Shown piece by piece: positions 30,358 to 50,965 of a stretch of DNA of 64,000 nt; positions within the stretch are counted from its first letter, which is position 1, and each line of letters begins with the position of its first letter. This stretch comes from Terriglobus roseus (lineage in GTDB: Bacteria; Acidobacteriota; Terriglobia; Terriglobales; Acidobacteriaceae), in NCBI RefSeq assembly GCF_900105625.1, contig NZ_FNSD01000001.1:2604001-2668000 (forward strand), read 5' to 3'. Under the pieces are notes generated by a model. That model was not told the origin of the DNA, did no database searches, and was given only the letters and a program-made list of their open reading frames with translations. The position numbers and the translations under genes are program-made.

Positions 30358-30867
30358 CAGGGTTCTTTCCTTGCGCTACCGGCCTTGGCCAGAGCTGTCA
30401 CTGTTGACCATGAGCATTACGCTCGACAGCCGGAGCAAAATTTAAAGCAAAGAAACCCTCTTCCGCTCCAGACAGCAGGACCGGACAGCGAGTTCTTCGG
30501 AGTCGTTTGAAGACCGTCGGCGATGCCGTAGCAGGACCGATCGGTTAGGTGGAACAGAGGTCACGTAGAAGCGTCTTGACCACTAGCTTGGTAGAACGAA
30601 ACTGATGGTAGCACGATGACGAGGGCCGTCTGGAAGGGCCATATCGCAAATATTTTTGCAAGAAAATCACTTGCACGAGACGTGGTGCAGGTGCAAGAAG
30701 AAGAGCCATCCGCGATTCCCTGTTTGGGTGATTTCGCTTGCCACCGATGGCAGCAGAGTGTATTTGCGGTCCCACTTTGGAACATCTAATGCGCCGTATC
30801 GCTTGTGCTTCCCGTTGCGCAAAGGAATACTCTTCATGCCCGGCTAATCTGCTGGTGGAGTCACTTC
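30358..30867. other. 510-bp region upstream of dnaA
   Basis: This gap holds the divergent promoters of dnaA and the VCBS protein gene. No clean DnaA box (TTATCCACA) was seen on either strand. Two inverted repeats occur: GCAAA-TATT-TTTGC near 30648-30661 within an AT-rich stretch, and CTTGCAC (30670-30676) paired with GTGCAAG (30691-30697). They could be regulator sites or part of an unwinding region. Confidence 0.4.
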
Positions 30868-33285
30868 ATGCTCACTGCTCGTCTGTTCGCTCTTGGTCTT
30901 CTCTTCGCCTCTTCTGCACTTTCCGCGACTGCGCAAAGCACCAGCACCACGTTGACTGCTACGCCCGCCTCCGTCAAGGTGGGAGGGTCAGTCGCACTCT
31001 CAGCAGCAGTGGTTGGATCGCAGAACTCCGCAGACAGTCCTCACGGTACTCTCGCCGTATATGACGGAAGTCCCACCCAAGGCGGGACAAGCATTGGCAC
31101 CGCACCGCTGATCGGCGCGACCGTAGCTTCCCCAACGGCGGTTCCCTTGGCGACCATGCTGGGCGCCATCGATCCTGCAGCTGCTGGTGTCCTTCTATCA
31201 GCAGATTTTAACGGCGATGGTAAGGCCGATGTGATTTCCTACGGACCAATCCCTTACAGCTCGGCCTCCGCTTCGACTGCATTCCAGGTCTTCCTCAACA
31301 ACGGTTCCGGCTCGTTCACAACGAAGACAGCGCAGACCTATCGGCTGATATCACCTGTCATCATCGACTTCAATCATGATGGAAAGCTGGACATCGTATC
31401 GTTATCACCAGCGGCTTCGGGCGCACCCGACGGTGCGAACCTGCAGGTATTCCTTGGCGATGGAGTGGGCGGATTCGCGGCGCCGATAACGCCCCCAGGT
31501 TTTACTCCGGCAGCCGGACCGCTAGGGTCCGCTTACTTCTCGACCATGGCAACTGCTGACCTTGAAGGCAACGGGTTGCCTTACCTTCTGCTGGGCAACT
31601 GGACAGGTACGTACCCTGACATTCAGAACGCTATCCTCGCGTACCGCAATAATGCAGACGGAACTTTCAGTCTTGCGGGTGTCTCCCCGGTCTACCTTGC
31701 GAGCACCCTGGGGCAGCTTAGCATCAGCAAGATCGTGACAGCGGACCTGAACGGAGATGGCAAGCTCGATGCGATCATCGACTTGCCTGAGCGCGCTACA
31801 ACTCCTCATATTGGCGTACTCACGCTTGGCAATGGCGACGGAACGTTTGCCCCGGGCAGTGCAACCTTTGCACCGCAAAGCTGCAGCGCGGTTTGCAATG
31901 GAGGCTTCACAGTCGTCACGGCAGACTTCAATGGAGATGGAAAGAAGGATGTGGCCGTTAGCTCGGGAGCGGGGCCCAGTGCAGGTTCGGATGATTTGTA
32001 TGTATACCTGGGCCACGGCGACGGAACGTTTGCTGATCCCTTAGCCAGCGCCTCTGTGTTGATCGCTCCAACGAATCCAAGTAACTTCAACGGCATCTAT
32101 GTTTCCATCATCGCTACAGATATCGATGGCGACGGCAAACAGGATCTTGTCGATTCCGCAGGCTACGCTTACCTCGGCAAGGGAGACGGAACGTTCACGT
32201 CAACTTCGAACCTGGCCGGGGCAACATTCTGGACTCAGATCTACTCGACGACTCCCTCTTTCGGAATGCTGCAGGCAGACCTGAACGCAGACGGTTTGGC
32301 AGACTACTACTTCTCATTTACCAATGTGCTCAATATATCGAGGGCCAACCTGCAGCCAACAGTGGTCCTTGGACGTGCCGGATCCATTGCGCAGCTCAGT
32401 ACGTCATCTCTGACTGCAGGAATGCATAGCCTGTACGCGGTATACGGTGGCGGAGGTGTCTTCCAGGGAAGTACCTCTCCTTCGACACCGGTAAGCGTCA
32501 GTCAGCAGCAGCCGACCGTCACCGGTGCGTCTTCTCCAAATCCTGCACTGATCGCACAGCCTGTTACATTAGCCGTCAAGGTGTCTGCTCCGTCCGTTCG
32601 GCCAACTGGCGCTGTGACCTTCACTGCGGGCAGCACGACACTTGGCACCGCAACGCTGGACGTGAGTGGCAACGCGTCGATCACCTACACCTTCGCGACC
32701 GTCGGGACACAAACCGTCACAGCGAGCTACGCGGGCGACGCCAATACCGCCGCGGCTTCGGTTGTGATCACTGCGACTACAGTCAACGCCTTCACCCTGA
32801 GCCCTTCCAGCGCTAACACGACCTTGACAACATCGCGAGGCGGTTCAGCGACGTCGGCCATCGTGGTCGCATCGCAGAACGGATTTAGCGGCTCTGTTGC
32901 CTTCACTTGCAGCGGCCTGCCGACGGGTGCGTCGTGTTCTTTTTCGCCAGCCAGCGTTACGGTCAGCGGTGCAGCGTCAGGCAATACGACCATGACCGTA
33001 GCGGTCACTTCGACCGTCAGCCTATTGCGTAACCTGCGCCGCAACAGTGGCGACCTCATGCTCGCGGGTGTGTGCCTGATTGGCATCGCGGGCGCGTCAC
33101 GGCGTCGCCGTCTTGTCAGTAACACGTTGATAGCGCTTGCTGTTTCCGTCACACTAATCGGCGCGGCAGGCTGCAGCGGTGGCGGTTCCTCCTCGACAGC
33201 CACGGCGAAGACGTACACCTTCAACGTCACTGCAACCTCTGGCGCTGCGCAGACCACCACCGCCTACACCCTCAACGTGCAGTAG
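30868..33285 (+). CDS. exported FG-GAP/VCBS and Ig-like surface protein
   Basis: The 805-residue protein has a signal peptide (MLTARLFALGLLFASSALSATAQS). Residues about 100-490 carry FG-GAP/VCBS repeats with calcium-binding loops such as DFNGDGKADV, DLNGDGKLDA and DIDGDGKQDL. Ig-like domains (Big_3-type, PTGAVTFTAG...) follow at about 550-640. The last 90 residues form a hydrophobic segment, SRRRR, a second hydrophobic segment ending GAAGCS, and a short beta domain (TYTFNVTATSG). The same C-terminal module ends two other proteins here. It is probably cell-surface attached; ligand unknown. ATG 30868 follows GGTGGAG. Confidence 0.85.
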   Translation: MLTARLFALGLLFASSALSATAQSTSTTLTATPASVKVGGSVALSAAVVGSQNSADSPHGTLAVYDGSPTQGGTSIGTAPLIGATVASPTAVPLATMLGAIDPAAAGVLLSADFNGDGKADVISYGPIPYSSASASTAFQVFLNNGSGSFTTKTAQTYRLISPVIIDFNHDGKLDIVSLSPAASGAPDGANLQVFLGDGVGGFAAPITPPGFTPAAGPLGSAYFSTMATADLEGNGLPYLLLGNWTGTYPDIQNAILAYRNNADGTFSLAGVSPVYLASTLGQLSISKIVTADLNGDGKLDAIIDLPERATTPHIGVLTLGNGDGTFAPGSATFAPQSCSAVCNGGFTVVTADFNGDGKKDVAVSSGAGPSAGSDDLYVYLGHGDGTFADPLASASVLIAPTNPSNFNGIYVSIIATDIDGDGKQDLVDSAGYAYLGKGDGTFTSTSNLAGATFWTQIYSTTPSFGMLQADLNADGLADYYFSFTNVLNISRANLQPTVVLGRAGSIAQLSTSSLTAGMHSLYAVYGGGGVFQGSTSPSTPVSVSQQQPTVTGASSPNPALIAQPVTLAVKVSAPSVRPTGAVTFTAGSTTLGTATLDVSGNASITYTFATVGTQTVTASYAGDANTAAASVVITATTVNAFTLSPSSANTTLTTSRGGSATSAIVVASQNGFSGSVAFTCSGLPTGASCSFSPASVTVSGAASGNTTMTVAVTSTVSLLRNLRRNSGDLMLAGVCLIGIAGASRRRRLVSNTLIALAVSVTLIGAAGCSGGGSSSTATAKTYTFNVTATSGAAQTTTAYTLNVQ

Positions 33286-43560: not shown

Positions 43561-46500
43561 CTATGTCCGGGGTGGGAATTGGTTGACGGTGAGCGTAACG
43601 TCCACACTGTGCGTCACAGCAGTCTGTGCGCCTGTTGCCGTGACATGCAGATGGTAGACGCCGGGCGCCAGGCCGATGTCCGTTGGTGGCACGCTGCATC
43701 CCGTCACGGCACCGCAAAGGACCATTGCGATTGCCAACAGAAGCCATGTCCCGGCTCGTCGTTTCCGCGCTGCAAGCAACAATCCGAATGGTAGACCGGC
43801 GAAGGCAGCTAGCTTCCCAGCGGAACCCAGAGGGGAGCGGTTCAGCGCCAGCGGCGAGAGACCCGTGTGAATCTTGATGAGAGCAGTGCCCGAAGTAGCC
43901 GCGCCAAGGGAGATATTCGTAGGCGAGGCGGTCGCGGACAGCCTTGCCTGCTGTCCGGTGACAGTCAGATTCAGACTGTCAGTGAAAGAGCCGATCTGAG
44001 CGGCCCTTACCGTCAATGTGACGTCGTCCACGGTGTAGGCGGTCAGGGTCGTGGTCGACGCGGTGAGGGTGAAGTCACTCTGGCCAGCCGTGGTCGGCAA
44101 AGTGACGATATGGCTGCCCATAAGCTTCACTCCGGGATGCGTGGCATCGCCAGGCCAGGCAGCGGTGATGGTATGGGTACCGGCGGCGACCGCGCCGGTA
44201 TGGGTCACGCGTGCGGTGTTGTTCGCAAGGAGAGCTGTCCCGACGGTCGCACCGTCCAGGGCAAAGGTCACCGTTCCTGATAGAGCTGTGTTGTCCACGG
44301 GAATCAGCGCAGCGACGATGTCAAAGGTCTGGTTTGGGAGTGAAGGCTCTGGATCACCACGGACGGTCCCCCCGACGCTCTCCGGATTTCCTAGATTCAA
44401 GAGTGCAGTTACGGTATCCGGTGGCTGGTTGGTTTCTCCGTTGGCGACAAGGATGTCCGGAAGGCCATCTCCATTGAGGTCCCTCACGAAAAGGGAGGAC
44501 AGACCCTGCCCTGCAACGTAATGACTTTCGCTGCTCACCGAGCGATCCGCTTGACCATTGATCACCCCAATAGAAGACAGGAAGTTGACATTGCTCTTCA
44601 GCACCAGGTCATCGTTGCCGTCACGGTCCAGGTCAGCGGCCACCATGTCGTAATACTGCCGGGTGAGGATGTGTGTGACTGGACTGTTGAACGTGCCATC
44701 GCCTTTGCCGTACCAGATGCTTAACCCTGGAACGTTCCCCTGCGGCTGCTTCAGGGTAGAAACGATCGCAATATCGCGGTGACCGTCCCCATCGAAGTCA
44801 CCCGCGGTAACGGAAGGAGTGGGCGCGGTCGTCAGATCGCCAGCAGACGGGATGGGAAGACTGACAACGCCCATCGTGTCAAAGCTTCCATCTGCGTTCC
44901 CGTGCATCACGTACGCATGGGCCGACGTTGCGAACACCGCGTCCAGGTCCCCGTCCCCATCGACGTCGGTCAGAACCGGGTAAGTGATGTGCGCATAGAA
45001 AGTACCGGCCATCTCGTAGGGCATGGATGTCGACACAGTGCGGAAGGTGCCATTCCCAGTGCTAAGAGAAATCTGCAGTACCGGCGGCTTTGTGGTGTCG
45101 TTTGGGAAGATCAGCAGGTCATCGCGACCATCGTGATTGATATCTGCAACCGGGCGGTTTGCCCCGGAATAGAAGTCGTCAAACACAGTCGGCAACAGGA
45201 TGCCGGAGGTCATCATGGGCGCGGCAAATCTGCCGTCACCCGTTCCCGTCATGAGGTAAACCTCCCGGCTTCCGCTGAAACTAGCCGGCTTTGCCACCAG
45301 GATGTCCTGCCTGCCGTCGCCGTTGAAGTCGCCGGAAAGCAGCGGTGTCGGACGCGTGTAGCTCGACTTCAAGTCGAGCCCGGCCGTCGCGATCGTGATG
45401 GGCGCTGAGAAAGTGCCATCACCTTTGCCTGTAACCAGAGTGAGGTCACTGTCGCTGGTGGCTGCCACGTCCGCCACCCCATCCCCATTGAAATCGGCCA
45501 GTGCCGCGTAGCTGAGGGCATCGCCCGGGGCCGTGGCAACGGATGGTACGGGCGGCGCCAGTCCAGCGGATGCACCGGACAAACTAAGCAGAATGCAGCT
45601 GGGTCCAAGTGCAACGATGTCCGGCAGTCCGTCGCCGTTCAGGTCTGCAATCTGATAGGCAGGGAACTCCGTTTGGATCGTGGCTTTCTGCGGTGGATAC
45701 CCGGCGATAACCTGGCGCGGTGTTCCGTAACGAAGGTTTCCCTGGGCAGGAATCGTGGTGAAGCCGTCATTGGATGTGCCGAAGACATCCAACTTCCCGT
45801 CTCCGTCCCAATCAAGAATCTGCCGCACCGTCGCAAGGGATGCCATCCCGGCCCCACCGCCAGGACCGCCAGGGTAAGTCGCCGCGACGATGGGTGATCT
45901 GCCGTTGAAGGTGCCGTCCCCATTGCCACGCAGAATGTAGAGACCGTTCGCGGTGGCAGAGAATGAATAGGAACATGCAGCATCGGCCTTCCCGTCACCA
46001 TCCAGATCCCGGTACGCGCAGCCGGTATAGATCGGTGAAGTCCCCAGGTTGTTGCCAAAGTTGCCGTCTCCCTTGCTGAGATTTACGAATGGTCCGTTCG
46101 AGGAAATCAGGTCGGGAACGCCGTCACCATCGATATCAGACAAGGTGGGGATGTCGTTGCTACCACTGGCGAACCCACCCGCGACAAACGTGCCGCCGCC
46201 GCGATTGACCATCATGTAGCTCACGCCAGCCTGCGGATCGACCATCAGTACGTCGGGCATGCCGTCTCGCGTGACATCCGCGATGGTGGAAACGACCGGA
46301 TATGTAAGGGGAATCTGAAACGGCGCGGTCTGCGTGACGAGTGACGTGACAGCCGCAGCGAAGCTGCCATCGCCCGAACCCTTGTAGAACAGCAGGGAGC
46401 TCTGGTAACTGTTCGTGGTGGCGCCCAAAGAGACTGCGGGACACAGCAGATCCAGGTGGCCGTCGCCGTCCACGTCTGCAGTTCCACAGTTGACTTTGCC

Positions 46501-46764
46501 GCTCGCGGGAAGAGATACCGTCGGCCCAGGCTGATAATCGCCGCTGCGCCAGAGAAGCGTGTGGATCGTCCGTGTGGAGAGGACACCGTACAAAACATCC
46601 AGATGTCCGTCCCCATCCAGGTCAGCAACCAGGACGCTGTTGGGATCGGTTTCAGTGGCAATCCTTCGGGGATTACGGAAGGACTCGCCATGTGCGGATG
46701 TACCCGCGGCCAGGAGAGCACCAAAAAGGCAGAGCGAGGCAAGGCAGTGACGCAGGACAGGCAT
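43561..46764 (-). CDS. large exported FG-GAP/VCBS repeat protein
   Basis: The 1067-residue protein has a signal peptide (LRHCLASLCLFGALLAAGTSAHG). About a dozen VCBS/FG-GAP units fill residues 35-790, each with an Asp-rich loop such as DLDGDGHLDV, DVDGDGHLDL, DINHDGRDDL or DLNGDGLPDI and often KGDGTF. An Ig-like domain (VTFALDGATVGTALL) follows. The last 105 residues hold a hydrophobic segment, ARKRRAG, a second hydrophobic segment ending VTGCS, and a short beta domain (GVYHLHVTATG). It probably folds as beta-propellers on the cell surface. The start is ATG 46764. Confidence 0.85.
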   Translation of the reverse strand: MPVLRHCLASLCLFGALLAAGTSAHGESFRNPRRIATETDPNSVLVADLDGDGHLDVLYGVLSTRTIHTLLWRSGDYQPGPTVSLPASGKVNCGTADVDGDGHLDLLCPAVSLGATTNSYQSSLLFYKGSGDGSFAAAVTSLVTQTAPFQIPLTYPVVSTIADVTRDGMPDVLMVDPQAGVSYMMVNRGGGTFVAGGFASGSNDIPTLSDIDGDGVPDLISSNGPFVNLSKGDGNFGNNLGTSPIYTGCAYRDLDGDGKADAACSYSFSATANGLYILRGNGDGTFNGRSPIVAATYPGGPGGGAGMASLATVRQILDWDGDGKLDVFGTSNDGFTTIPAQGNLRYGTPRQVIAGYPPQKATIQTEFPAYQIADLNGDGLPDIVALGPSCILLSLSGASAGLAPPVPSVATAPGDALSYAALADFNGDGVADVAATSDSDLTLVTGKGDGTFSAPITIATAGLDLKSSYTRPTPLLSGDFNGDGRQDILVAKPASFSGSREVYLMTGTGDGRFAAPMMTSGILLPTVFDDFYSGANRPVADINHDGRDDLLIFPNDTTKPPVLQISLSTGNGTFRTVSTSMPYEMAGTFYAHITYPVLTDVDGDGDLDAVFATSAHAYVMHGNADGSFDTMGVVSLPIPSAGDLTTAPTPSVTAGDFDGDGHRDIAIVSTLKQPQGNVPGLSIWYGKGDGTFNSPVTHILTRQYYDMVAADLDRDGNDDLVLKSNVNFLSSIGVINGQADRSVSSESHYVAGQGLSSLFVRDLNGDGLPDILVANGETNQPPDTVTALLNLGNPESVGGTVRGDPEPSLPNQTFDIVAALIPVDNTALSGTVTFALDGATVGTALLANNTARVTHTGAVAAGTHTITAAWPGDATHPGVKLMGSHIVTLPTTAGQSDFTLTASTTTLTAYTVDDVTLTVRAAQIGSFTDSLNLTVTGQQARLSATASPTNISLGAATSGTALIKIHTGLSPLALNRSPLGSAGKLAAFAGLPFGLLLAARKRRAGTWLLLAIAMVLCGAVTGCSVPPTDIGLAPGVYHLHVTATGAQTAVTHSVDVTLTVNQFPPRT

Positions 46765-46855
46765 GAGGGATTCCGGTACAGGAAGTGGCACCAGCTTACT
46801 GCACCGCTGCGACCTTCCGTACCCGACATCGGGTGAAGGGGTAAACTTATCAGCG

Positions 46856-47695
46856 ATGAGTTGGTTCAAGCGGCTGGATAACGAGATTGTTTCGGACTCT
46901 GAGCGGACGGTCCGCACGGAGGGCCTTTGGGTCAAGTGCCCGGATTGTGGCAAGGCCATCTTTCGCGCGGAGCTGGACGCGAACATGCGTGTGTGCCCCC
47001 ACTGCGGCCACCACTTCAAGATGGACGCCCGCACCCGCATCGACAACCTGCTGGAGCCTGGCTACCAGCTTGTCGATATGGAACTAGTATCGACCGACCC
47101 GCTGAACTTCACCGACCTGAAACCTTATAAAAAGCGGCTGGCCGAAGCGCAGGCCAAGACTGGCCTGAATGACGCCATCGTCAATGCCATTGGCAAGCTC
47201 GGCGAGCGCGACATTGTGATCAGCGCCATGGAATACAGCTTCATTGGCGGCAGCATGGGTGCAGTGGTGGGTGAGACGATCGCCCGCGCCGTTGACCGCT
47301 CGCTCGAAACGCGTGCTCCTTTGCTCATCATCAGCGCCAGCGGTGGTGCGCGCATGATGGAGGGCATTGCCAGCCTGATGCAGCTTGCGAAGATCTCCGC
47401 CGCGCTGGGCCGCCTCGCAGACGCGAAGGTGCCCTACATCAGCCTGATGACGGACCCCACCACGGGTGGCGTGACCGCCAGCTTCGCCATGCTGGGCGAC
47501 CTGAACATCGCAGAGCCCGGCGCACTGATCGGCTTCGCTGGTCCCCGCGTCATCGAGCAAACCATCCGCCAGAAGCTGCCCGAAGGCTTCCAGCGCAGTG
47601 AGTTCCTGCTACAGCACGGCTTCCTGGACGCGGTTGTCCCGCGCAAGGAACTGAAGGCTTACCTCGAGCGCGCGTTCGGCTGGATGTCTGCCTAG
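46856..47695 (+). CDS. accD: acetyl-CoA carboxylase carboxyltransferase subunit beta
   Basis: AccD transfers the carboxyl group to acetyl-CoA in the first step of fatty acid synthesis, together with AccA. The 279-residue protein opens MSWFKRLDNEI and has the four-Cys zinc ribbon CPDCGKAIF...VCPHCGHHF, then the crotonase-like core with SGGARMMEGIASLMQ, LMTDPTTGGVTASFAMLGD and GFAGPRVIEQTIRQKLPEGFQ. accA is not in the window. The start at 46856 is by family length; the Shine-Dalgarno is poor. It is divergent from the VCBS gene. Confidence 0.97.
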   Translation: MSWFKRLDNEIVSDSERTVRTEGLWVKCPDCGKAIFRAELDANMRVCPHCGHHFKMDARTRIDNLLEPGYQLVDMELVSTDPLNFTDLKPYKKRLAEAQAKTGLNDAIVNAIGKLGERDIVISAMEYSFIGGSMGAVVGETIARAVDRSLETRAPLLIISASGGARMMEGIASLMQLAKISAALGRLADAKVPYISLMTDPTTGGVTASFAMLGDLNIAEPGALIGFAGPRVIEQTIRQKLPEGFQRSEFLLQHGFLDAVVPRKELKAYLERAFGWMSA

Positions 47696-48064: not shown

Positions 48065-50965
48065 ATGACACCTGTTCCCCCCGTGATGTCTTCCAAGGCG
48101 CGATTGATGCTCCGTACCGCTCGCACTGCCTTTGTCTCCGGCCTGATGCTGTCCGGATTGCTGCACGCGACGGCGCAGACGCCTGCTCCGCGGCTGGCAG
48201 CGGTTCCCGCGGCCACCGCTGCCCGATTCGCTCTGCCCGCCAGCCCGAAGGAACGTCTGGAGAACTCGCAGGTCATCGGACACCTCTCCGGCGAGACTGC
48301 GGTGACCGGCATGAAGCTGTACCTGAAGCCTACGGCCGCGCAGCAGGCTGACCTGGATCAGTTGGTCGTGGACCAGCAGACCCCCGGGTCCGCTGCCTAT
48401 CACCAGTGGCTGACGCCCGCGCAGTATGGAGCGCGATTCGGCCTGGCGGACGCGGATCTCTCTACGCTCACTGCTTGGTTGCAGGCCCGTGGCTTCACCG
48501 TCGACGCCGTTGCACCCAGCCGCAACTTCATCACCTTTTCCGGTACTGCCTCAACGGTTGAAAGCGCCTTCGCGGTTTCCATGCAGCGTTACCGCCGCGA
48601 TGGCCGCGAGTTTTTTGAGAACAGCACGGCTCCCTCGATTCCTGCGGCACTGGCCGATGTGGTCGGCGGTATCACCGGCATCAGCAGCTTCCGCGCGGTC
48701 CCACACGCACGCCACATCGCTGCCCCTCAGGCGAAGCTGACCGGCGACTACACCACCAGCACCGCGGCGCACTATCTGGTGCCATGGGACGTTCGACAGA
48801 TCTTTGGGGTCAACACTCTGATCAGCTCGGGCTTTGACGGAACAGGCGTCAAGATCGGCGTCATCGGCCAGTCGGCCGTAGATACCGCCCAGTTGACCTA
48901 CTTCCAGCAGAAGACGGGTCAGACCGTGAAGCTGCCCACGATGATCCTTGTGCCGAACACCGGTGTCAGCAACAAGGTGGATGGTGATGAGGGCGAGAGC
49001 GAACTCGACCTGGAGTACTCCGGCGGCGTAGCCCCGGGCGCTTCGATCCAGTTCATCTATACGGGCTGCACCAGCACTACCAGCACCGGTGTTCTCAGCG
49101 GTACCACCAACTGCGGCAGCAACGGCGTCTTCGATGCGCTGAGCTACGCGGTGACCAATGCGGTGGCACCGATCCTGACCCTGAGCTACGGCGGCTGCGA
49201 ATCGTCGTACACAACCTTCGCCACGGCAGGAACTACACCGTTTGAGTCCGTGCTGAAGCAGGCCAACGTGCAGGGACAGACCATCATGGTGTCGTCCGGC
49301 GATACGGGCGCGACAAGCTGCGAAGGATCTACCGCATCGCTGGTGGCCACGGGCGGACTCTCCGTCTCCTATCCTGCATCTTCGATGTATGTGACCGCTG
49401 TGGGCGGAACTGCGCTGAATACCGATAGCGCCACCTTCTGGAGCTCCACCAACAACAGTTTCGAAGGATCGGTGAATGCCACGGTCCCGGGAACCACCGG
49501 ACCCATGCCAGCGGTGGCCTGGAACGACACCGTGGCCTACGGCTCGCTTTCGGCAAGCGGCGGCGGCGCGAGTGCCATCTTCAACAAGCCAAGCTGGCAG
49601 ACCGGCACCGGAGTGCCCGCCGATAGCCATCGTGACGTGCCGGACGTCGCCTTCCCGGCAGCCGTGGAGCAGCACGCGTACATCGTCTGCAGTCAGGGTT
49701 CTACCTGCTCGAATTCCAACCTTGGTTTCGGCACATCGAATGGCGGCGGAGGCCTGGTGGGTGGCACCTCAGCCGCAGCGCCGGTGTTCGCAGCAATGTT
49801 GGCTGTCGTCGAGCAGGCCAATGGCGGTGCTTCGCTGGGCAACATCAATCCGAGCCTGTATACGCTGGCTGCCGGGTCATCCGCCAGCAGCATCTTCCAG
49901 GACATCACCAGCGGCAACAACATCGTTACCTGCAAGGGTGGCACTACCGGCTGCTCGTCGACCAGTGCCACCACAAATGGCACAATGGGCTTCTCCGCCG
50001 GAACGGGTTATGACCAGGTCACGGGCCTTGGTTCTATCCTTGCCACCGGCCTGCAGGCCGCCTTCTCCACGATCGCTAACCCCAGTACACTTCTGACGCC
50101 GAGCGTCGTAGTAGCCGCTGCAACATCCACGCCGACGGGCGGCACCACGGATCTACTGTCGATCACCGTTGCCGGTTCGGGCGCAACCCCGACGGGAACC
50201 GTGACGGTCATCGTTGACGGAACGGCGTTGTCGACCGCCACCGCGCTCTCCAGCGGTACGGCGAACTACACCTACGCCGTCCCAGCGTGTACGGCGACGT
50301 CTGCCTGCTCGCACACCGTGCTCGTCTACTACGCTGGCAACGCGGTGTACAAGCCAGGCTCTGGCACGCTGACGCTGACGGTTCCCACAACGTCTACGGG
50401 TGTCACACCCTCGTTCACGCTGAAAGCCGCTTCCTCGACGGTGACGACTTCCGCAGGAGGCTCAACGACTAATGTCATCGCGGTAACTCCGGCCGGTGGC
50501 TTTACGGGTGCCGTGACCTTTTCGGCAGCGTTGACCAGCTCGACCGGAACGTTTGCCGGTTGTTACCTTCTGCCGACGGCCACCGTGGCCAGTGCCGCAG
50601 TCAGCTCCACCATGACCATCTACACCGCGACAACTGGCTGCGCGTCGAGCTCGGCCCTGAAGAGTTCGACCTTGGCAAAGCTCGACACGAAGCCAACGCA
50701 GCCTGGCTTGCCCGGTCCGCGCGCTGGCTTAGTGGTGTTCTCTGCCGGTCTGCTGGCCTGCTTCACGCTTCGTAAGCGCGTGCGTGCCGGTGTGCTGATC
50801 GCAGTCGCCCTTTCGGCGCTTACGGTCGGCATGACTGGTTGCAGCAGCAGCGGATCAGCCGCTACAGCGGCCACGACGACCTCAGCAGGCACGTATGTGA
50901 TCACTGTGACCGGCACTTCCGGCACGCTGAGCACGACCACGAGCTTCACCCTGACCGTCCAGTAA
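48065..50965 (+). CDS. exported S53 (sedolisin/kumamolisin) protease with Ig-like C-terminus
   Basis: The 966-residue protein is a serine-carboxyl peptidase, usually active at acid pH outside the cell. It has a signal peptide (about residues 18-38), a pro-kumamolisin prodomain (about 55-210; YHQWLTPAQYGARFGL), and the catalytic domain with ESELDLEYSGGVAPGA (Glu and Asp) and GGTSAAAPVFAAMLA (nucleophile Ser). An Ig-like domain follows, then the C-terminal module: a hydrophobic segment, LRKRVRAG, a second hydrophobic segment ending MTGCS, and GTYVITVTGTSG. ATG 48065 or a downstream ATG could be the start. Confidence 0.9.
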   Translation: MTPVPPVMSSKARLMLRTARTAFVSGLMLSGLLHATAQTPAPRLAAVPAATAARFALPASPKERLENSQVIGHLSGETAVTGMKLYLKPTAAQQADLDQLVVDQQTPGSAAYHQWLTPAQYGARFGLADADLSTLTAWLQARGFTVDAVAPSRNFITFSGTASTVESAFAVSMQRYRRDGREFFENSTAPSIPAALADVVGGITGISSFRAVPHARHIAAPQAKLTGDYTTSTAAHYLVPWDVRQIFGVNTLISSGFDGTGVKIGVIGQSAVDTAQLTYFQQKTGQTVKLPTMILVPNTGVSNKVDGDEGESELDLEYSGGVAPGASIQFIYTGCTSTTSTGVLSGTTNCGSNGVFDALSYAVTNAVAPILTLSYGGCESSYTTFATAGTTPFESVLKQANVQGQTIMVSSGDTGATSCEGSTASLVATGGLSVSYPASSMYVTAVGGTALNTDSATFWSSTNNSFEGSVNATVPGTTGPMPAVAWNDTVAYGSLSASGGGASAIFNKPSWQTGTGVPADSHRDVPDVAFPAAVEQHAYIVCSQGSTCSNSNLGFGTSNGGGGLVGGTSAAAPVFAAMLAVVEQANGGASLGNINPSLYTLAAGSSASSIFQDITSGNNIVTCKGGTTGCSSTSATTNGTMGFSAGTGYDQVTGLGSILATGLQAAFSTIANPSTLLTPSVVVAAATSTPTGGTTDLLSITVAGSGATPTGTVTVIVDGTALSTATALSSGTANYTYAVPACTATSACSHTVLVYYAGNAVYKPGSGTLTLTVPTTSTGVTPSFTLKAASSTVTTSAGGSTTNVIAVTPAGGFTGAVTFSAALTSSTGTFAGCYLLPTATVASAAVSSTMTIYTATTGCASSSALKSSTLAKLDTKPTQPGLPGPRAGLVVFSAGLLACFTLRKRVRAGVLIAVALSALTVGMTGCSSSGSAATAATTTSAGTYVITVTGTSGTLSTTTSFTLTVQ

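Follow-up and report, generated by a model that had tools for sequence, protein, structure and literature searches.

A C-terminal tail on exported proteins of Terriglobus roseus: a split Ig-like domain with an internal lipoprotein-type signal and a possible inverted lipoprotein anchor

Three exported proteins in the window end with the same tail

The window analyzed here is a 64,000-nucleotide stretch of the Terriglobus roseus genome (assembly GCF_900105625.1, contig NZ_FNSD01000001.1, positions 2,604,001 to 2,668,000 of the forward strand). Three of its genes encode exported proteins, designated P0002, P0003, and P0001, that carry one and the same tail at the C terminus. The genes and the parts of the tail are listed below in window coordinates, with the strand.

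30805..33285, +, P0002, FG-GAP/Ig-like (Big_3_5) exported protein with tail
32785..33012, +, P0002 N-terminal piece of the split Ig-like domain (model strands E2-7 to E65-74)
33055..33099, +, P0002 TM1, first hydrophobic helix
33100..33111, +, P0002 Arg cluster RRRR, predicted cytoplasmic turn of the hairpin
33112..33171, +, P0002 TM2, h-region of an internal lipoprotein-type signal, ends AAG (Arg-TM2-Cys profile)
33172..33207, +, P0002 lipobox Cys and Gly/Ser/Thr linker, CSGGGSSSTATA
33208..33282, +, P0002 last two strands of the split Ig-like domain, C-terminal (model strands 142-152 and 155-165)
43561..46764, -, P0003, large FG-GAP/VCBS exported protein with tail (ATG at 46764 preferred to TTG at 47046)
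43861..44079, -, P0003 N-terminal piece of the split Ig-like domain (alignment of 36 diverse tails)
43768..43812, -, P0003 TM1
43756..43767, -, P0003 Arg/Lys cluster RKRR
43699..43755, -, P0003 TM2, lipoprotein-type h-region, ends VTG (second best genome match of the Arg-TM2-Cys profile)
43663..43698, -, P0003 lipobox Cys and linker
43564..43662, -, P0003 last two Ig strands and a few trailing residues
48065..50962, +, P0001, S53-type (pro-kumamolisin) exported protease with tail (PF09286, 1e-31)
50408..50638, +, P0001 N-terminal piece of the split Ig-like domain (second AlphaFold2 model)
50723..50770, +, P0001 TM1
50771..50785, +, P0001 Arg/Lys cluster RKRVR
50786..50839, +, P0001 TM2, lipoprotein-type h-region, ends MTG (best genome match of the Arg-TM2-Cys profile)
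50840..50887, +, P0001 lipobox Cys and Ser/Gly/Ala/Thr linker
50888..50962, +, P0001 last two Ig strands (strands 161-171 and 174-184 of the second model)

The likely start of P0002 is the ATG 21 codons downstream of the frame start, and its signal peptide ends in SATA, before QS. The TTG-started frame of P0003 (window 43561-47046) is probably about 94 codons too long; the ATG at 46764 is followed by an evident signal peptide and lies divergently to an accD-like gene at 46763. The pro-kumamolisin domain makes up the N-terminal part of P0001. A sequence-only reading of the window had treated the three proteins as unrelated to each other, which applies to P0001 outside the Ig domains and the tail but not to P0002 and P0003, both FG-GAP/VCBS proteins and relatives of each other (BLASTP 122 bits, E 2e-32). 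The order of elements proposed in that reading is found at all three C termini, i.e., a hydrophobic helix, an Arg/Lys cluster, a second hydrophobic helix, GCS, strands with Y-x-x-x-V-T-x-T, and LNV or LTV at the end; in P0002, it runs ...LMLAGVCLIGIAGAS-RRRR-LVSNTLIALAVSVTLIGAAG-C-SGGGSSSTATA-KTYTFNVTATSGAAQTTTAYTLNVQ.

The final Ig-like domain is split by a membrane hairpin

The module had been placed from about position 33020 onward; its true start lies near 32785, and the remaining Ig strands precede the first helix. TM1, the Arg cluster, TM2, the lipobox Cys, and a Gly/Ser linker are inserted, in this order, into the final Ig-like domain, ahead of its last two strands. Intact Ig copies elsewhere read ...TLTVNTSSSTPAGTYTLTITGTSGSLTHSTTVSLTVN, and in the tails, the hairpin sits directly before the PAGTY segment. 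The terminal residues, about 35, that were described earlier as Ig-like strand make up the final two strands of this domain.

Briefly, residues 661-826 of P0002 were modeled together with 35 relatives in AlphaFold2. The pLDDT was 90-98 for most of model residues 1-76, about 96 for residues 142-166, and 51-67 over most of the hairpin, which is of low confidence in both the P0002 and the P0001 models. The closest solved fold is the Ig-like domain of Micromonospora viridifaciens sialidase (1EUT, 2BER, residues 404-502), a similarity of fold only: 97 residues spanning 1-166 of the P0002 model superpose on this contiguous domain with Z 12.9 and 1.8 Å. The P0001 protease tail gave the same fold result (Z 12.6, 98 residues, 2.1 Å). 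In contrast to the sialidase domain, the Ig domain of the tail is interrupted by the membrane hairpin; its two pieces, about 65 residues apart in sequence, lie in one sandwich in the AlphaFold model, and we therefore predict that they form a single Ig-type sandwich.

The hairpin contains a lipoprotein-type signal

The Cys is the sole invariant column in the alignment of 36 diverse tails. It is present in 82/82 distinct tails, always preceded by G, A, or S (59 G, 18 A, and 6 S in a set of 83 tails that still includes one duplicate), and it is kept in 40/40 additional tails; in three of the latter, a neighboring Cys was picked by the script and the lipobox was confirmed by eye. Among the 82 tails, the uncharged run before the Cys is 13-24 residues long (median 18), 33-58 residues lie between the Cys and the C terminus, a strict PROSITE-like lipobox fits 30, and a relaxed pattern fits 65. 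The linker is rich in Gly (33%) and Ser (20%). Please note that the 42 hairpin-bearing domains considered below were found by patterns placed only in the strands after the Cys, so that the search itself did not select for Cys; the hairpin filter did demand it, and the remaining matches, inspected by eye, had no hairpin.

TM1 is present in 81/82 tails and the turn has a net charge of +2 or more in all 82. The mean number of Lys plus Arg per tail is 4.55 in the turn, 1.84 before TM1, and 0.41 in the 20 residues after the Cys, which by the positive-inside rule places the turn in the cytoplasm.

A profile of 28 columns covering the Arg cluster, TM2, and the Cys was built from the tails alone and run over the whole genome. 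It found 23 places at E ≤ 1, i.e., 11 tails and 12 others, and 11 of these 12 lie close to the N terminus of an open frame that has a start codon upstream (p about 9e-9 for an expected share of 15% at N termini). Tat-type and LptE-like lipoprotein signals are among these 11; the twelfth is a 55-residue frame with no clear meaning. No internal transmembrane helix of a membrane protein was matched anywhere in the genome until E > 1. By sequence, then, the Arg cluster, TM2, [GAS]-Cys, and Gly/Ser linker amount to a lipoprotein signal peptide in an internal position. The tails have the basic residues, the h-region, and the small residue before an invariant Cys that define such signals, but not the location at the N terminus; as their Cys lies 33-58 residues from the C terminus, tail proteins are not filed as ordinary lipoproteins.

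We consider that the tail probably fastens its proteins to the membrane by a lipid near the C terminus. The topology data are equally compatible with an uncut two-helix anchor in the inner membrane, in which the protein is held by TM1 and TM2, the Cys carries a lipid or has some other use, LspA does not cut, and the Ig domain stays covalently whole. The retention of TM1 in 81/82 tails is what a needed anchor would lead one to expect, and the predicted Ig fold requires no cleavage. A bare anchor, however, has no need of an invariant Cys preceded by a small residue, or of a lipoprotein-like linker, and a single transmembrane helix would suffice; we regard this alternative as rather unlikely.

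An Asp directly after the lipoprotein Cys is the inner-membrane retention signal of Escherichia coli. It occurs at this place in 1/83 tails, and by analogy, its near-absence would permit sorting to the outer membrane.

The tail is a curated but unstudied family

The tails match NCBIfam NF058595 'invert_tail', 'lipo-invert putative C-terminal anchoring domain' (release 20.0; 36/36 aligned tails), so the tail, which the sequence-only reading did not know to be described, was already in a catalog. The curated cut-off of 37 bits is passed by whole P0001 (50.7 bits) and P0002 (38.2 bits); P0003 scores slightly under it in the genome search (36.1) and matches at E ≤ 0.01 as a tail. NF058595 describes the same module as our analysis, near full length to the C terminus: copies in the window's genome (E < 1e-4) reach position 112-113 of the 113 positions, except for one (L009, position 107). 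The model begins inside the strand that directly precedes TM1 and hence takes in little of the Ig domain, and its name says only 'putative anchoring'. A literature search, with most subscription journals outside it, found no paper on the family or on the mechanism of the tail, so the family to which the tails belong is curated but, by this search, unstudied.

Some matches to the model are of other kinds. Five weak ones in the window's genome are N-terminal lipoprotein signals. In a genome of Verrucomicrobiota (G356), matches are almost all confined to the strand half (positions 72-113), inside long proteins; at one locus there (L076), the model scores above cut-off through its last 41 positions on intact internal Ig domains, and it can therefore mislabel proteins that have no hairpin. 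NF058595 had no match in 95 further genomes of the same phylum. Tails outside Acidobacteriota were accordingly rejected, since the non-acidobacterial loci contained intact Ig domains.

The tail ends many different secreted proteins

Fourteen clear NF058595 copies (E < 1e-4) are found in the window's genome, all with Gly-Cys and all stopping 0-10 residues before the stop codon, and the sharing of the tail is not due to chance. The tail is present in 31/31 sampled genomes of the same family (Acidobacteriaceae), each with at least two copies. One locus from a genome of the same genus (L030) is identical over the query to a locus of Terriglobus albidus (L063). Among 71 genomes of the class searched at E 1e-12, it occurs in 10/10 genomes of family f1; f83 and f84 have it in most or all genomes, and f2, f81, f82, f85, f86, f87, and f88 in none. 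Elsewhere in the phylum, weak NF058595 matches are sparse and some may be lipoprotein signals. Two strong single tail matches in family f42 of the phylum (G216:C4:191052-191405, E 1e-22, and G272:C7:318655-318990, E 1e-20, in loci L033 and L037) suggest distant occurrence or transfer.

Another 40 tails from many genomes end 0-21 residues before the stop. When loci were collected via patterns in the last (post-Cys) strands only, hairpin-bearing domains were 0-14 residues from the protein end and uninterrupted ones almost all internal, with terminal-to-internal counts of 41:0 and 2:21, respectively (Fisher p 6e-15). One protein (L118) has an intact internal Ig-like copy followed by a hairpin-split terminal copy, a natural before/after pair.

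Across the genome, the carriers are S53-type proteases, FG-GAP and NHL propellers, endonuclease/phosphatase-like proteins, and ASH- and Big_3_5-rich proteins; by its sequence, the same tail ends many otherwise different secreted proteins of soil Acidobacteriota. Each half of the tail resembles a known part, as it would if secreted Ig proteins had recurrently been fused to lipoprotein genes with no function gained. Such fusions would hardly share the insertion point, the order of elements, and the invariant Cys; all three recur in no fewer than 122 tails, which come from several families of the class and end many kinds of protein, and this explanation is barely credible.

Export and candidate enzymes

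By eye, 13/14 members in the genome have a Sec signal peptide, typically with A-x-A before Gln; in the fourteenth (L012), the open frame is cut by an upstream frameshift. On the question raised at the outset, whether the tail sits at the C termini of exported proteins, this count and the C-terminal placement of the hairpin-bearing copies both speak in favor. The mature N termini have no initial Cys, which again sets these proteins apart from ordinary lipoproteins. An apparent frameshift, from a pseudogene or a sequencing error, is seen at L060:3036-4850 (tail gene at G000:C1:2932735), a protein with choice-of-anchor/ASH repeats; its upstream repeats run on in another frame and end exactly where the tail-bearing frame opens.

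Both Lgt and LspA genes are present in the window's genome, as the lipid-anchor reading expects: one LspA and two Lgt-like genes. A dedicated LspA was rejected, for LspA is single in 15/15 Acidobacteriaceae. The second, divergent Lgt-like gene (G000:C1:1844057-1844761, 84 bits versus PF01790) is found in most sampled Acidobacteriaceae; it was rejected as a partner because outside this family it is present in 3/18 tail genomes versus 10/43 others. Extra Lgt copies overall are found in 12/28 versus 10/43. Exosortase was rejected too (15/28 tail genomes versus 15/43 others, p 0.14; p 0.78 outside Acidobacteriaceae).

No dedicated partner was thus found among the enzymes tested (LspA, second Lgt, exosortase). 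As LspA is single and neither extra Lgt nor exosortase tracks the tail, the most economical view is that it is served by the general lipoprotein enzymes. The anchoring or sorting signal suggested from the sequence therefore stands in part, in that all of the data agree with a C-terminal module that anchors exported proteins; the specific protease or translocase that was to accompany it is not among the candidates tested.

The same data bear on a sorting tag of the CTERM type, in which TM1 and the Arg cluster would be cut by a sortase-like intramembrane protease (exosortase/myxosortase type) and the lipopeptide half would be accessory. The helix followed by an Arg cluster resembles PEP-CTERM and MYXO-CTERM, and the window's genome has one exosortase and three CPBP proteases. 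However, the 36-tail alignment has no conserved motif before TM1, exosortase is missing from 13/28 tail-bearing genomes and uncorrelated with the tail, and the tails match no PEP-CTERM or MYXO-CTERM model; we hold such a tag to be quite improbable.

Three statements made here are, as far as our search went, new: that the Ig fold is split, that the signal in the tail is equivalent to lipoprotein signals genome-wide, and that the tested enzymes include no dedicated partner.

Proposed mechanism and its meaning

Our proposal is an anchor of the 'inverted lipoprotein' type that the tail forms within its split Ig-like domain, with lipidation by Lgt and perhaps cleavage by LspA; we give this reading as a whole about an even chance. 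Sec would export the protein, TM1 would stop transfer while the Arg turn remains cytoplasmic, and TM2 would re-insert, presenting the Cys at the periplasmic face, where the housekeeping Lgt would attach diacylglycerol; we infer these steps, from export through hairpin insertion to lipidation, to be likely. LspA may then cut before the Cys, so that the Cys and the 33-58 residues after it become a lipopeptide whose two strands would stay locked in the Ig sandwich, and the passenger would thereby be held via the lipid at its C-terminal end. For cleavage with retention of the lipopeptide in the Ig fold, the chance falls a little short of even. More tentative still, and on balance doubtful, is the proposal in its fullest form, i.e., a fold-locked, noncovalent lipid anchor made by the housekeeping Lgt and LspA alone, the lipopeptide being kept by strand complementation, which would be a previously unstudied route. 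Unless another protease cuts, TM1 and TM2 would keep even a passenger cleaved by LspA in the inner membrane, and the tails have no conserved site for such a cut; delivery to the outer membrane or the surface would call for the removal of TM1.

Soils are rich in Terriglobia, whose genomes can hold 14 or more copies of this tail, on large secreted proteases, β-propellers, and adhesin-like proteins. If the proposal is true, the lipoprotein enzymes act at the end of a protein, which they reach via a hairpin, and the Ig fold holds the cut pieces together; the definition of a lipoprotein would be extended, and signal-peptide predictors that consider the N terminus only would miss the tail proteins.

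Comparison with known anchoring systems

The bacterial lipoprotein signal handled by Lgt and LspA shares with the tail the basic n-region, the h-region, the small residue and Cys, and the Gly/Ser linker, and the two are cross-detected by the profile. In contrast to the ordinary signal, that of the tail is internal, about 40 residues from the C terminus and behind another transmembrane helix, and the large domain lies upstream of the Cys, whereas it lies downstream in ordinary lipoproteins.

PEP-CTERM, the exosortase substrate tag, likewise has a transmembrane helix and then an Arg cluster near the C terminus. The tail differs in that it has no Pro-Glu-Pro motif or other conserved motif before TM1, continues beyond the Arg cluster, and does not require exosortase, with which its occurrence is not correlated. 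MYXO-CTERM is a C-terminal tag on Sec-exported proteins, associated with myxosortase; it has an invariant Cys, for which lipidation is proposed, a transmembrane helix, and an Arg cluster (PMC11980579). It shares these three elements with the tail, but in the reverse order: MYXO-CTERM runs Cys-TM-Arg-end, whereas the tail runs TM-Arg-TM-Cys-two strands.

Cut pieces held together by strand pairing are familiar from the GAIN domains of adhesion GPCRs and from the donor strands of pili; both are comparisons for the proposed fold-locked tail and not relatives of it.
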